A stretch of 64,000 bases of DNA from Acidobacteriota bacterium (GTDB taxonomy: Bacteria > Acidobacteriota > Terriglobia > Acidiferrales > UBA7541): contig QHYZ01000060.1 of the NCBI GenBank assembly GCA_003225295.1, positions 1-64,000 on the forward strand, read 5' to 3'. Below are positions 1,721 through 6,664 of this stretch, one piece after another (position 1 is the stretch's first letter; every line of letters starts with the position of its first letter). Made by a program: the position numbers and the translations under genes. Below the pieces are notes generated by a model that saw nothing but the letters and a program-made list of their open reading frames with translations, was not told the origin of the DNA and ran no database searches.

Positions 1721-3205
1721 ATGGACGTCTGTGTTGAAAACGTATTTACCGGCCCCGCCATTGAGGCCATCAATGTGATTCAAGCAACTGCGGATGAGGA
1801 GAAGCGCAGGGCCGCCCTCAACCGACAGTGCGGGTCTCAGGACAAGGAAGACCCGCGATACGGGGGCACGGGACAGGAAACCGGGGCACAGAGCCCGGGC
1901 CCTGCGGACTCAGCAGAAACACCACGCACGGAAACGGCGGCGGAGAAAAATCCGTGGTCCGCCTGGGCGTGGCTGGGAATGTGCAAAAACTCCAGCCGCA
2001 GAATTCCTAACATTGTGCACGTGGATGTGGACGCGTTTTTCGCTTCGGTGGAGCAAGTGCTGAATCCCAGGCTGCTCGGCAAGCCCGTGTTGGTGGGGCG
2101 CGGCGTAGTGGCTTCGGCGAGCTACGAAGCGAAGTTCCGCGGAGTGCGCACGGCGATGAGTTTTCGCGAAGCGCTGCGCATCTGCCCGAAAGCCGTTGTC
2201 GTGCCCGGGCAATACGAGCATTACGCCGATTTTGCGGAGCGCGTGCGGCGAATCCTTGAAACTTACACGCCCGCGGTTGAAACCGCTGCACTGGACGACT
2301 TTTACCTCGATTTTGCAGGCACCGAGCGACTGTATCCGGACTACCAAGGCACGCTGCGGCGTTTGCAGGCGGAGATATTTGGCCGCACGGGCCTGAACGT
2401 TTCGATTGGCGCGGCGCGAACGAAGGTGGTGGCGTCGATTGCGTCGCGGCTGGAGCGCCCACGGGGCTTTCGCGTGATCGCGTGCGGTGAAGAAGAAGCG
2501 TTCCTGACGCCGCTGTCGGTGGAAAAGCTCCACGGTATCGGCCACGTGCACACCGGGGTGCTGGCCGAGCGCGGCATCGTAACCATCGGCCAGCTGCGCC
2601 AGGTGCCCAAGCCCGCGTTGCAGGCTGCCTTCGGCGAAGCCATCGGCCAGCAAATCTGGGAACGCGCCCGCGGGCTGGATGGCCGCGAAGTGCTGCTGCC
2701 CTCGACGCCGAAATCCGTTTCGCGCGAAACAACCATCGAAGGCGGCACCATCGACACGGAATTTCTCGGCGGCCTGATCGAATATCTCAGCGAGCGCATC
2801 GGCTCGACCTTGCGCGAATACGGCAAGCAGGCGCGCACCATCGGCCTGCGCATCCGCTATGTCGATCAATTTTTGGCGCACCAGACAGTGCGGATCAGCA
2901 AACCAACCAACGACGAGCGCGAACTGCTCGTCACCGCCAAGGACCTCTTTGGCAGATTGTTCACGCGGCGCGTGGCCGTGCGCCTAGTCGGCGTCAGCGT
3001 GACGAACCTCGAAACCGATAAACGCCCGCACGAGCTCTTTGACACCAACGCCAACCGCCGCTGGTACTTGAACCGCGGCCTCGATTCCGTGCGCGGCCGC
3101 TACGGTTGGAACGCCGTCTTCTACGGCAAAGGCCTCGAGCTGCGCGAGCATTACGCGACCAAGCCGAATGGGCTGGTGCTCTCGACGCCATGCTTATCGA
3201 GGTAA
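1721..3205 (+). CDS. Y-family (DinB/Pol IV-like) DNA polymerase
   Basis: The product is predicted to act in translesion synthesis. The Y-family palm motif HVDVDAFFASVEQ is at residues 100-112, the fingers motif SASYEAKFRGVRTAM at 132-146, and the second catalytic motif reads AALDDFYLD at 189-197. The usual form of the last is S-[IL]-D-E-A-[FY]-L-D, so the second acidic residue is Asp193 instead of Glu. The helix-hairpin-helix region (LHGIGHVHTGVLAERGI) and the little finger follow. The start at 1721 has AGGAG six bases upstream, giving an 86-residue charged N-terminal extension absent from typical Pol IV. A core start at Met87 (1979) is possible but has a poor ribosome-binding site. dnaE2 follows after 69 bases, the usual damage-mutagenesis pairing. 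Retention of catalytic Asp102 and Asp192 argues against a purely structural ImuB. Confidence 0.87.
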   Translation: MDVCVENVFTGPAIEAINVIQATADEEKRRAALNRQCGSQDKEDPRYGGTGQETGAQSPGPADSAETPRTETAAEKNPWSAWAWLGMCKNSSRRIPNIVHVDVDAFFASVEQVLNPRLLGKPVLVGRGVVASASYEAKFRGVRTAMSFREALRICPKAVVVPGQYEHYADFAERVRRILETYTPAVETAALDDFYLDFAGTERLYPDYQGTLRRLQAEIFGRTGLNVSIGAARTKVVASIASRLERPRGFRVIACGEEEAFLTPLSVEKLHGIGHVHTGVLAERGIVTIGQLRQVPKPALQAAFGEAIGQQIWERARGLDGREVLLPSTPKSVSRETTIEGGTIDTEFLGGLIEYLSERIGSTLREYGKQARTIGLRIRYVDQFLAHQTVRISKPTNDERELLVTAKDLFGRLFTRRVAVRLVGVSVTNLETDKRPHELFDTNANRRWYLNRGLDSVRGRYGWNAVFYGKGLELREHYATKPNGLVLSTPCLSR

Positions 3206-3274
3206 TTTGGTGAGTTTTTCCTTCCCTTTCCCTACCTGATTTGAATTAACAAGCAGGGCTGCCGAAAGGCGGAC

Positions 3275-6200
3275 ATGCCTTCTCCCTTTCCATGTGGGGC
3301 TCCCGTGTTCGTACATCTGCATTGTCATAGCCATTATTCCTTTCTACGAGGCGTGGGGTCGCCGGAGGAAATCGTCGCGGCAGCGGTTGAGCAGAAAATG
3401 CCTGCCGTGGCGCTGACGGATACGAACGGGCTGTACGCCGCTGTTTCGTTTTACCAAGCAGCGAAAAAAGCAGGCATCCATCCCATCGTCGGCGTGGTGT
3501 TGGATGTCGAATTTTATGTTTCGAGCGAGCCATTTCGAAATTGCAAAAGCAAAACTCGACATTCGTCGAGTGCGCCTCTAACGCTGCTGGCGGCGGACAT
3601 GGAAGGCTACAGCAATTTGTGCCAACTCGTGACGCTGCGGCATTTGGGCACCACCAAGCCGTCACAAAATATTCGTTCCCCGGAAACCGATGGCCGACCG
3701 GTGACATTCGAGGAGTTGGCGGAGCACAACCGCGGCGTGATCGCATTGGCACCTGCGAACCATCTGCAGTTGATATCCTTCGCTTCGCTCAGGATGACAA
3801 ACGAAAAGAAGAGGGCGGGCGGGGCAAGTCCCGCCCCTACAAAAACAACTCAGGGAGACGACCATTGCCAGGAGCAAGGAATCTCTTCCACGAGTCAGGA
3901 GTCACCAATTGCCACTCACTTTTCACAACTCAAGGAGATTTTCGGCGATCGCTTGTATATCGAGGTGCAGCATCTGTCACCGGGCGACGGACAAACGCTG
4001 CGCGAGGCTGAGCGCCTCGGCCACGAACTGGGCGTGCCGCTGGTAGCGACAAACAATGTGCACTTCCTCCGGCCCGAGGAGCATTTGCATCATCGCACGG
4101 TGAACGCCATCCGCACAGGCGGCTTGCTGACGACAGTGGCGCCACCAGAAATCACTACCGGCAAGGCGTGGTTCAAACCGGTGGCAGAAATGCAGAAACT
4201 TTTCCCTGATCATCCGGAATTACTCCGAGCAACGCTGGAAATCGCCGAGCGCTGCAACTTGCAACTCGAGCTGGGGAAACTGATCTTTCCGGAGTTTACC
4301 GTTCCAGAAGGCCATACGCCGGATTCCTATTTGCAAAAGCTGAGCCTCACGGGCGCATTGAAACGCTATCACTCATTTACACCAGAAGTGCGCTCGCGGC
4401 TCATGCGTGAATTGGAGGTCATCAAAAAGTGGGGCCTGGCGCCGTATTTCCTGCTGGTATTGGAGATCGTGGAAGAAGCGCGGCGGCGCGGCATTCCCGC
4501 CGTCGCGCGCGGTTCGGCGGCGAGCTCCATGGTCACGTATTGCCTGGGAATTTCGCGCGTGTGCCCGTTACGATGGGGGCTGTACTTTGAGAGATTTTTG
4601 AATGACCAGCGCGGCGATTGTCCGGACATCGACATCGATATCTGTGGTGCGAGGCGCGATGAATTGCTCGACTATGTGTACCAGCGTTGGGGCGCGGAAC
4701 ACGTCGCCATGATCGCGAGTTTCATCACCCTGCACGCGCGGCTCGCGGTGCGCGAAGTGGCCAAAGTGTTTGGCGTGTCACCGGGAGAGGTGGACCGATT
4801 CACAAAGCGGCTGCCGCATCGGCCGGTGCGCGACATTCTTTCGGCGATTCGCGATCTGCCGGAGTGCCGCGACCTCCCCGTGCACGACGAGCCCTGGAAA
4901 ACGGTCCTGCAAGTAGCCTTGCGGCTCGACAACCTGCCACGGCATCTGGGGATTCATCCCTGCGGCACAGTGATTTCTGCGCGCCCGCTGACGTGGCTGA
5001 CGCCGCTGGAACGGGCGACAAAAGGGATCGTCGTGACGCAGTACGATATGAACGCCATCGAAGCGCTTGGCCTGATCAAGATGGATCTGCTCGGACAGCG
5101 CGGCTTCACGACACTGTCGCTGGCACTGGACAACGTGGAGAAAGCTAAGAACGGGGGCACTGACAACACAACAATAGCGCCGGATGGAACGACACCGTGT
5201 CCCAAACCGCGGGAGATCGATTTTGACGCCCTACCGGAAAACGATCCCGCGACGTGCGACGTGATCGCCGCAGGGCGAACGATCGGAATCTTTCAGATCG
5301 AATCGCCGGCCATGCGCGGATTGCTGCGAACGATGAAAGCTCGCACCCTTGAGCAAGTGGCACAGGCATTGGCACTGATCCGTCCAGGCGCGGCGGAGTA
5401 TGGGTCGAAAGAATTATTTGTGAAGCGGCTGCGCAAACAGGAAAACGTGACATTCGCTCATCCAAGACTCGAGCCCATTCTCGGCACCACACTTGGCGTA
5501 TGCATCTTCCAAGAGCAGGTAATGCAAATCTCACAGGCCATCGGGAACATGTCGCTGGCCGAAGCCGACCTTGTGCGGCGGGCGTCTACAAAAGTTTCCG
5601 GCCGGAGCGACCGCCAGCGATTGCTCGCGAAATTCATGAAAGCTGCAGGAATGATGGGATTGACGAGAGTCCAACGAAACGAAACCTGGATGATGGTCGA
5701 AAAATTCGCCGGCTTCGGCTTCTGCAAAGCGCACGCCGCGACGTATGCGGACATCTCCTACCGCATGGCGTATCTGAAGACGCATCATCCAGCGGAGTTC
5801 TTGGCAGCGATGTGCAGCGCGGGAGCGGGGTTCTATCACGTGTCGGGGTATGTGGAAGAAGCCAAGCGCTGGGGCATCGCGGTGCGGCTGCCGTCGGTGA
5901 ATCGTTCGCGGATGGAATACACGGTCGAGGCCGGCGAAAACGGAGCACACGCGCTTCGTATTGGACTGATGCAGGTGAAGGGCCTGCGCGTCGAAACGAT
6001 CATGGCTATTCTGCGCATGCGGGACGAAGCTGGCGCGTTCCGCTCTCTGGAGGATTTTTTGCACCGTGTGACAGTCGAACGCGATGAAATTCAAGCCCTG
6101 ATCAAGTGCGGTGCGTTCGACGAGGTCTGTAATATGACGCGGCCCACGATGCTGTGGCGCTGGAATTTCTTGCAAGCCGGTGGGAAAAATGCACGATCAG

Positions 6201-6664
6201 GAACGGCGGAGCTGACGGAGAACACAAAAACACTGTTTGTCACTGCGAATGCACATGATGCCATTGACGCGGCGCTGACGGAAATGCACGCGCCGGAATA
6301 TACGATCGAGCAAAAGTTAAAATACGAACGCGAGATTTTGGAAGTCTGCGTGAGCGGACACCCGCTCGATTTCCTGCCGCGCAACGGCGAAGCCTGGAGC
6401 GATGAACTAACGGGCCTGCGCGGGGAACGCGTGACCCTATGCGGCTGGGTGGTGACGTACCGCCACGTCGGAACAAAAAACTATCGCAACATGATGTTCG
6501 TCACGCTCGAGGACCAGCGGGGCGTGTATGAAGTGGTGCTCTTCCCCGATGCCTACGATCGATATGGCGGTCTGGTGTTTGAGACACGTTTAATGCGCGT
6601 GACCGGTCGCGTCCAGGACGACGGGCAGATCAACGGCGAGAAGCTGGAAGCGTTGAAAAAGTGA
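3275..6664 (+). CDS. dnaE2: Error-prone DNA polymerase III alpha subunit DnaE2 (ImuC)
   Basis: This 1129-residue C-family polymerase belongs to the error-prone DnaE2 class used with Y-family partners in damage-induced mutagenesis. The N-terminal PHP domain begins VHLHCHSHYSFLRG (residues 13-26). The catalytic aspartates are in PDIDIDIC (about 450-457) and KMDLLGQRG (about 602-610). A helix-hairpin-helix region follows, and the C-terminus is an OB fold (ERVTLCGWVVTYRHVG). The gene lies 69 bases behind the Y-family polymerase, so co-transcription is likely. Residues of about 165-213 are an unusual stretch within the PHP domain, encoded partly by a palindromic intergenic-type repeat (3771-3840) read in frame. 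The reading frame is otherwise intact and all main motifs are present. Confidence 0.94.
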   Translation: MPSPFPCGAPVFVHLHCHSHYSFLRGVGSPEEIVAAAVEQKMPAVALTDTNGLYAAVSFYQAAKKAGIHPIVGVVLDVEFYVSSEPFRNCKSKTRHSSSAPLTLLAADMEGYSNLCQLVTLRHLGTTKPSQNIRSPETDGRPVTFEELAEHNRGVIALAPANHLQLISFASLRMTNEKKRAGGASPAPTKTTQGDDHCQEQGISSTSQESPIATHFSQLKEIFGDRLYIEVQHLSPGDGQTLREAERLGHELGVPLVATNNVHFLRPEEHLHHRTVNAIRTGGLLTTVAPPEITTGKAWFKPVAEMQKLFPDHPELLRATLEIAERCNLQLELGKLIFPEFTVPEGHTPDSYLQKLSLTGALKRYHSFTPEVRSRLMRELEVIKKWGLAPYFLLVLEIVEEARRRGIPAVARGSAASSMVTYCLGISRVCPLRWGLYFERFLNDQRGDCPDIDIDICGARRDELLDYVYQRWGAEHVAMIASFITLHARLAVREVAKVFGVSPGEVDRFTKRLPHRPVRDILSAIRDLPECRDLPVHDEPWKTVLQVALRLDNLPRHLGIHPCGTVISARPLTWLTPLERATKGIVVTQYDMNAIEALGLIKMDLLGQRGFTTLSLALDNVEKAKNGGTDNTTIAPDGTTPCPKPREIDFDALPENDPATCDVIAAGRTIGIFQIESPAMRGLLRTMKARTLEQVAQALALIRPGAAEYGSKELFVKRLRKQENVTFAHPRLEPILGTTLGVCIFQEQVMQISQAIGNMSLAEADLVRRASTKVSGRSDRQRLLAKFMKAAGMMGLTRVQRNETWMMVEKFAGFGFCKAHAATYADISYRMAYLKTHHPAEFLAAMCSAGAGFYHVSGYVEEAKRWGIAVRLPSVNRSRMEYTVEAGENGAHALRIGLMQVKGLRVETIMAILRMRDEAGAFRSLEDFLHRVTVERDEIQALIKCGAFDEVCNMTRPTMLWRWNFLQAGGKNARSGTAELTENTKTLFVTANAHDAIDAALTEMHAPEYTIEQKLKYEREILEVCVSGHPLDFLPRNGEAWSDELTGLRGERVTLCGWVVTYRHVGTKNYRNMMFVTLEDQRGVYEVVLFPDAYDRYGGLVFETRLMRVTGRVQDDGQINGEKLEALKK
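3771..3840. repeat. HPERSEG-type palindromic repeat inserted in frame in dnaE2
   Basis: On the minus strand this segment would translate CHPERSEG, the hallmark of a dispersed repeat known from spurious ORFs in Acidobacteriota and other genomes. It is followed by a GC hairpin: GGGCGGG (3817-3823), loop GCAAGT, CCCGCCC (3830-3836). It encodes roughly residues 165-188 of DnaE2, without a frameshift or stop. A hairpin of the same design lies at 32912-32935. Confidence 0.7.

Follow-up and report, generated by a model that had tools for sequence, protein, structure and literature searches.

Old palindromic repeats translated in frame within predicted disordered loops of a DnaE-type DNA polymerase from Acidobacteriota

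A loop in the PHP domain of a DnaE paralogue, a repair-type C-family DNA polymerase of a soil member of the Acidobacteriota, carries repetitive DNA that is translated in frame. The 145-base stretch concerned is a composite of a CGTC-type REP, a GTAG-type REP, a decayed AGTCAC heptamer array and spacers, all within one loop. It is old in the nearest clade, shows a raised dN/dS and coincides with predicted disorder; repeats of several families recur in the same four loops of the orthologues, and two paralogue controls are nearly or wholly free of them. Near-neutral accretion of short REPs into disordered loops, wherever the reading frame stayed open, is the best explanation and very probably the right one. 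The window, that is, the whole stretch of 64,000 nucleotides analysed here, belongs to contig C264 of a genome of 8.13 Mb in 385 contigs, and L011 denotes its own row among the orthologues.

The polymerase gene (3275..6664, plus strand) is a single open frame of 1129 residues reaching from PHP to OB. Within it, a loop of 59 residues lies between two conserved shoulders, HNRGVIAL on the left (residues 151-158; 3725..3748, plus strand) and QLKEIFGD on the right (residues 218-225; 3926..3949, plus strand). Its first element is an extended CGTC-type REP on the minus strand (3767..3799), whose 21-base core ATCCTTCGCTTCGCTCAGGAT forms the hairpin at 3775-3795 and whose plus strand is translated as QLISFASLRMT. 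HPERSEG, the name under which the repeat had been noted, is its minus-strand reading, while the coding frame reads SFASLRMT; no paper using that name was found in the open-licence literature. A 13-base spacer (3800..3812) separates this unit from a GTAG-type REP on the minus strand (3813..3840, hairpin 3817-3836) with a GTAG tag, a 7-bp stem and a 6-base loop, translated as (R)AGGASPAPT. The decayed AGTCAC heptamer array follows on the plus strand (3889..3919) and is translated as TSQESPIATH. Further upstream, in another PHP loop (loop 1), lies a decayed TTTCGAAATTCGAAA-type repeat (3533..3565, plus strand) at distance 6 of 33, compared with a minimum of 14 in 60 shuffles. The sequence-only reading of this DNA was therefore right in placing a repeat in frame inside the PHP domain of a polymerase, its core at 3775-3795 being well within the open frame. 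Its assignment of all 145 bases to that one repeat stands for 21-33 bases; the rest is the GTAG palindrome, the AGTCAC array and spacers.

The GTAG and CGTC superfamilies of REPs were defined by Di Nocera, De Gregorio and Rocco in 2013 (PMC3733652). A CGTC-type REP bears a CGTC tag, often TGTC, and a stem of 8-9 bp starting from AT with a loop of 4-5 (PMC3733652). In the window copy, TGTC stands directly before the stem on the minus strand and the stem begins with AT; the predicted fold consists of the TCCTG-side pairs, an unpaired GA/GA step, 2 bp and a 3-base loop. ATCAA follows the stem in place of a CCA tail, but such a tail is said to fit only 'most' CGTC REPs (PMC3733652), so its absence alone does not exclude the assignment. 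The GTAG-type copy of the window has an unpaired GTAG tag at the end of a stem within the 5-13 bp range, whereas in the near-perfect palindromes of its relatives the tag pairs with CTAC and the type is less well matched. The hairpin score of the GTAG palindrome is 7 in the window row, equal to the maximum of 30 shuffles (7), and 9 in L012 against a maximum of 8 in 30 shuffles; only 3 of 200 shuffles match its folding energy. The CGTC core includes the heptamer GCGAAGC, an unusually stable DNA mini-hairpin. The folding energy of the core as a whole is unremarkable, an equally good value being reached by 21 of 200 shuffles; its identification rests on sequence and on further copies.

Could the likeness to repeats be accidental and the loop simply an ordinary conserved part of the PHP domain? 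The open reading frame and the sharing of the loop by the nearest relatives would fit such a view. However, the CGTC probe matches the loop at distance 1 of 26, while the minimum among 60 letter shuffles of the loop is 11, and the core occurs at five places in the own genome with at most two mismatches (one exact, the window copy), against none for the reversed-pattern control. The loop is, moreover, absent or unrelated in other orthologues. Chance similarity is refuted by these control matches, shuffles and orthologue loops, and its probability is next to nil. The AGTCAC array probe lies at distance 6 of 24, with a minimum of 8 among 60 letter shuffles. Of the five CGTC copies, three fall between long ORFs and two are in frame, which qualifies the earlier description of the repeat as normally intergenic; the copy count advised at that time reveals a repeat that is rare in this genome.

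The CGTC-type repeat is multicopy across relatives, with matches in 22 of 25 genomes, the own genome included. The core reaches 35 places in relatives belonging to another family of the order, and stem variants TCCT/AGGA, TTCT/AGAA, TGCT/AGCA and CCCT/AGGG are found among order-level relatives. In the five genomes G026-G030, of the same order and another family, the repeat is present in 19-35 copies, with several stem variants that are complementary in their two arms and a GAGCGAAGCGA core that hardly varies. The extended unit CTGCAGTTGAGATCCTTCGCTTCG (at most three mismatches) was matched in 15 of 36 genomes of the genus, again including the own genome and the DnaE copies of this genome, G015 and G014, with two matches in total for the reversed control; hence the bases to the left of the CGTC core are part of the repeat. 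At one intergenic place of the own genome (L199), a GTAG REP, an 11-base pyrimidine-rich spacer and a CGTC REP follow one another in the same order as in the loop. The GTAG-type and array components are scarcer at home. The palindrome GTAGGGGC..GCCCCTAC has no place in the own genome, and the GTAG subtype of the window has seven other places, each at three mismatches (control 0); the GTAGGGGC palindrome occupies up to 20 places in relatives. AGTCAC arrays occur in 13 of 25 genomes, with counts of up to 82 in relatives (array matches overlap) and none in the own genome. The loop thus resembles a relic of repeats that were once more numerous in this lineage and would since have mostly disappeared from it. 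For annotators this is a reason for caution, since what appears as a variable loop in an Acidobacteria protein can be mobile DNA of old date.

The age of the insert is indicated by its nearest relatives. L012 (94% identical) and L046 (84%, partial) hold the whole insert at the same site, and L013 (78-80% identical) has the CGTC repeat and the array. In the comparisons with L012 (0.115 vs 0.106) and L046 (0.51 vs 0.449), dS is the same for the insert as for the remainder of the gene. Meanwhile, the dN/dS of the insert over 53 codons is raised, at 0.37 vs 0.26 for L012 and 0.40 vs 0.13 for L046; the PHP part before the insert gave 0.32 and 0.26, respectively. Equal dS together with raised dN/dS in L012 and L046 means that the insert was present in the common ancestor and is weakly constrained, and a recent single insertion is ruled out by its presence and equal dS in these two. 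As the nearest-clade dN/dS values stay below 1 (0.37-0.40), some constraint may remain. The insert had been described as adding about 40-50 residues, which is a fair estimate in view of the 59 residues of the loop against 13 and 15 residues in L024 and L054, which have the shortest loops among the close orthologues. It had also been seen as a single, recent and conspicuous event; this part fails, because the nearest relatives share it at equal dS and it is one of many at four loops. The recommended alignment of relatives found the CGTC repeat at the site in three of the 28 other orthologues (L012, L046 and L013), the other 25 being without it. Conservation of the stretch in all close homologues had been named as the outcome that would count against a recent insertion, and the picture is mixed: three relatives share the repeat, and the protein there is not well conserved.

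An error of assembly or binning in a metagenome-assembled genome is a further conceivable source of such an insert. The genome is indeed split into 385 contigs, and its nearest named relatives are themselves MAGs, the nearest being Acidobacteria bacterium 13_1_20CM_58_21, with several other close ones labelled gp2. But the same insert is found in the assembly of another genome (L012, identical with L041, on MNIJ01000054.1, 94% amino-acid identity), by which an artefact is ruled out; we regard it as extremely improbable.

Beyond the nearest clade the history is more complex. Between L011 and L013 the insert has a dS of only 0.38, compared with 1.05 for the rest of the gene, and a dN/dS of 0.97, and L014, the sister of L013, is without the CGTC repeat. 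From these sequences, the CGTC repeat of L013 is likelier to be a later arrival or an exchange, and the low insert dS combined with its absence from L014 indicates that loop alleles were also exchanged or re-inserted. It is therefore worth considering that the repeats spread mainly via recombination of loop alleles between species or with genomic copies, which would be compatible with near-neutral accretion and to which we give somewhat less than an even chance. L013 carries not only the CGTC repeat but also the left shoulder of the L011 clade. Likewise, the loop-1 CGTC repeat of L017 has its left flank in common with L043 and its right flank in common with L044, across clades, while the tree neighbours of L017 (L049, L054, L018 and L029) hold another repeat. 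Nevertheless, different stems and families at one site require sources beyond a single donor allele. Two finds made by eye also argue against recombination as the main route: L057, which is more distant, has a GTAG dimer, and L061 a GTAG-like palindrome.

In the host polymerase the domain search gave PHP, alpha, finger, HhH and OB domains, and the OB hit ends at residue 1116 of 1129, so that the protein stops 13 residues past it with no C-terminal domain behind, a lack regarded as a hallmark of DnaE2 (PMC3919608). A fold search confirmed the DnaE fold and nothing beyond it. Three DnaE genes of the own genome were among the matches found. One, on contig C147, is DnaE1 (NF004226, 1460.7 against a cut-off of 1002), and another, on C330, is a canonical error-prone DnaE2 (NF004225, 1199.9 against 939). 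The window gene stays below both cut-offs (838.9 on NF004226 and 677.5 on NF004225), passes the superfamily model TIGR00594 as the sole one of the models, and encodes a protein 30% identical to that of C330. The C330 gene (L201, genome G000) is preceded by two ORFs, one with a RecA domain and one of the Y family, and their order suggests that they may be ImuA/ImuB-like. The identification of the host as DnaE2 in the sequence-only reading has accordingly to be corrected: the NF004225 cut-off and the separate DnaE2 on C330 rule it out as the canonical ImuC-type DnaE2 of this genome, and from its sequence we would call it a DnaE2-class paralogue of no assigned subgroup.

The gene resembles the DnaE2 class (PMC3919608; DnaE2A/B/X in PMC12926913) in ending just past OB and in PHP residues that are altered relative to the DnaE1 of its own genome (TDTNG/TDHGN, GVVLDV/GCEVYV and ATNNVHF/ATNDCHY). 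In other C-family polymerases metal is bound at such positions, in agreement with PMC3919608. Directly upstream of the gene lies that of a DinB-type Y-family polymerase (1721..3205, plus strand; 494 residues; NF002677, 257 bits against a cut-off of 256). Some DnaE2B genes likewise adjoin a Y-family polymerase gene, whose product bears a RecA-NT motif, and DnaE2B is reported from genomes without ImuA/ImuB (PMC12926913). Unlike those systems, the present genome also has a Y-family ORF beside its canonical DnaE2, and the window gene is below the NF004225 cut-off.

The same gene was compared in 29 orthologues. The length of loop 2, the loop described above, ranges from 8 to 85 residues. In this loop the CGTC repeat occurs in four orthologues, that of the window included, a GTAG palindrome was marked by eye in 18, and an AGTCAC array was marked in 18. 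Loop 1 holds a TTTCGAAATTCG repeat in 13 of the 29 and a CGTC repeat in five, three of which are decayed (of the five, only L017 and L044 also pass a stricter 25% limit); L046 was excluded from these loop-1 counts, its sequence beginning after loop 1. The GTAG dimer of L057 lies in loop 1. Loops 3 and 4 bear further palindromes and a AAGGAAATAAAGG-like repeat in other orthologues and none in the window gene. AlphaFold2, run with a 34-row alignment, returned a mean pLDDT of 81.1 for the window protein, with values below 50 at residues 1-9, 83-96, 164-209, 628-645 and 971-992. The four internal stretches of low pLDDT are the four repeat loops. The proposed check for a surface loop thus came out in favour as far as a predicted structure can tell, since the insert (164-209) falls below 50 amid a PHP core that is well predicted around loop 2. 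Together with the orthologues lacking the repeat and the raised dN/dS in the insert, this predicted disorder agrees with the earlier statement that a dispersed repeat is tolerated in a coding sequence.

Nine repeat probes gave 104 matches in the four loops of the 29 orthologues and 22 outside them; reversed probes gave nine, six of which fell in loop 3. At least one loop match was present in 24 of the 29. The loop limits were widened by hand around the segments with pLDDT below 50 and cover 140 of 1129 residues. The 22 outside matches map to residues 2-9 (nine), 214 (four), 999-1004 (five) and 887 (four), that is, to the N-terminus, to loop edges and to the vicinity of 887. The probes were partly chosen from the loops, three of them match one palindrome, and the KEV probe is of low complexity; hence the 104 matches are not independent and the enrichment in loops is partly circular, so that it describes the pattern without testing it blindly. 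For the CGTC and GTAG types, whose definitions come from other work, the loop pattern is the same as for the full set. Genome-wide copy counts cover the probes other than KEV, QGK and GACAG. In the paralogues, 20 DnaE1 genes gave one match (reversed probes, two), and by eye no gap was seen at the loop position in the 20 aligned rows; seven canonical-type DnaE2 genes of the own and related genomes gave none with the forward probes (of the seven, the own gene, L201, was assigned by NCBIfam, and L205 was covered in part). On the tree of the 29 rows, the minimum number of changes is two for the loop-2 CGTC repeat, seven for the GTAG palindrome, seven for the AGTCAC array, five for the loop-1 CGTC repeat and nine for the TTTCGAAATTCG repeat, with labels set by hand and the GTAG label by eye. 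As shared flanks reveal some exchanges, these changes are not called independent insertions.

A different reading is that the palindromes are kept for a function, either as hairpins in the DNA or mRNA of a mutagenesis gene, acting on pausing or mRNA stability, or as linkers to a binding partner, for instance the Y-family polymerase encoded next to it. The pairing in loop 2 lends it some substance. Among ten distinct copies of the palindrome, changes on both sides were found at 5 of 13 pairs, a number reached by 12 of 500 shuffles, and 90% of the cells were paired, a level reached by none of 500 shuffles, with slid controls at 30-51%. The count covers 11 of the 18 GTAG-marked orthologues (L011, L012, L018, L025, L043, L046 and L061 were left out), and its row L017_18_43 has the letters of L017; L018 and L043 share that stem and differ in the last letters. 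Plain drift would not produce such double changes; they call for selection, for quasi-palindrome correction or for the substitution of one family member by another. The pair types, on the other hand, are not in excess over shuffles (9 vs 9.2). Genomic copies in the genus include the alternative stems ACGAT, GCAGC and ACGGC as well, if not in every case within one and the same genome, so replacement or template-switch correction may be enough; selection on the loop-2 hairpin may also be a cause of the kept pairing.

Three further points would favour function. Taken over the two REPs (24 codons), dN/dS is 0.15 and 0.27 in the nearest clade, the lower value being that of L011-L012 with three changes; many REP-tagged genes act in replication and repair (PMC3733652); and the PHP domain of M. 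tuberculosis DnaE2 has been modelled as an ImuB contact (PMC12926913). Against it, orthologues have no repeats or unrelated ones at the same place, the loop length varies over the whole range given above, dN/dS is raised across the 53 codons, and PurL, which is not a repair gene, has such palindromes too. Taken together, we consider a function of the palindromes unlikely.

Repeats in frame are indeed met in other genes. The second in-frame CGTC copy of the own genome lies in an MrfA/HRQ1-like helicase, just before the MZB domain. In one loop of this helicase, CGTC-like repeats were seen by eye in four of 22 aligned orthologues, GTAG-like ones in five and a GACAG palindrome in three, with none evident in ten (24 loci had been retrieved; L189 and L194 were left out because the anchor was missing). 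Genome G005 carries two GTAG-type palindromes in frame in PurL (L164/L209, G005:C400), which scores far above its NCBIfam cut-off and is an enzyme of purine synthesis. The same genome has a GTAG palindrome in frame (VGAQHAAPL) in a RAYT-like gene (L163/L208, G005:C367; NF047646, 49.3 of 80 bits; Pfam Y1_Tnp, 23.6 of 23), with a second copy 329 bases upstream. In G005 and G009, 27 palindromes were read in context (19 of 20 in G005, the remaining one being the DnaE copy L019, and 8 of 11 in G009), and two ORFs of a recognised family were hit, PurL and the RAYT-like gene; six other palindrome-spanning ORFs submitted to Pfam had no family above cut-off. That two of the five CGTC copies of the own genome sit in repair-type genes is suggestive only, being too few for a claim, and PurL and the RAYT-like gene speak against a preference for repair genes. 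Contigs C212, C294, C302 and C357 of G005 (L154, L158-L159, L160 and L162) each bear two or three identical GTAGGGGCACGATATATCGTGCCCCTAC palindromes, some inside ORFs; the ORFs tested had no Pfam family above cut-off and no PHROGs match. A phage origin of these repeat-dense contigs was considered and dropped, as three ORFs gave no PHROGs match.

Under near-neutral accretion, the CGTC REP, the GTAG REP and the AGTCAC array would have settled in an ancestral disordered PHP loop in stop-free frames. On either strand, both REP consensus units can be read through in two of three frames, so that a length in register makes many insertions translatable. Insertions that broke the frame or the fold would have been lost and those in disordered loops kept; the latter would then drift almost neutrally, be lost or swapped, and outlast the genomic repeat population, with no function of their own. 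The GTAG REPs may have been brought by RAYT transposases, their hypothesised movers (PMC3733652), and the CGTC REPs would have entered by some unnamed route; the same paper found no transposase dedicated to the CGTC type. For the GTAG type, the RAYT-like gene of G005 with its palindromes supports such mobilisation, as do Y1-transposase matches in 23 of 25 genomes, with RAYT and IS200 kinds unsorted. A more directed building of the loops, through RAYT insertion and template switching at palindromes, with the gene as a favoured insertion target and the palindromes kept paired as nucleic acid, perhaps at a raised rate when the polymerase itself is active, is in our estimation quite unlikely.

Insertion of REPs into genes is already known. 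REPs lie inside repair genes, DnaE2 among them, and dimers and groups encode 20-30 and up to 82 residues. Its authors suggest that REPs may be neutral where they fall in loops, and also that they may influence the mutator state (PMC3733652). The palindromes described here are like those intragenic GTAG/CGTC REPs in being tagged and in frame within repair or replication genes. They are also similar, by the description given in PMC3733652, to the Rickettsia palindromic elements, which are palindromic repeat DNA in frame in protein genes of a different host lineage. In the parts of PMC3733652 available, however, the cases are listed by genome and their sites mostly differ, apart from recB, which is affected at about one site in two Xanthomonas, and the Acidobacteria passages of the main text concern transposases. 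Here, by comparison, several families are found in the same four predicted disordered loops of 29 orthologues, with paralogue controls, and decayed copies outlive the genomic population. The new part is therefore the multi-species, multi-family and multi-loop series with its paralogue controls; no paper describing such a series was found in the open-licence literature searched by titles and abstract openings. One listed case has thus become a comparative series of one gene, 29 orthologues, four loops, several families and two paralogue controls. With such a series, counting can serve to test what Di Nocera et al. left open, namely whether neutrality or selection accounts for the REPs in repair genes.

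Two minor observations may be added. The own genome contains two error-prone-type sets, the DinB-type gene with the DnaE paralogue (1721-6664) and the RecA-domain/Y-family/DnaE2 group on C330, a combination at odds with the DnaE2A/B rule of PMC12926913. In L017, L020, L023, L024 and L044, AGTCAC arrays extend across the gene start, around window residues 2-9, and the start codon or leader of these five polymerase genes may itself be derived from a repeat.
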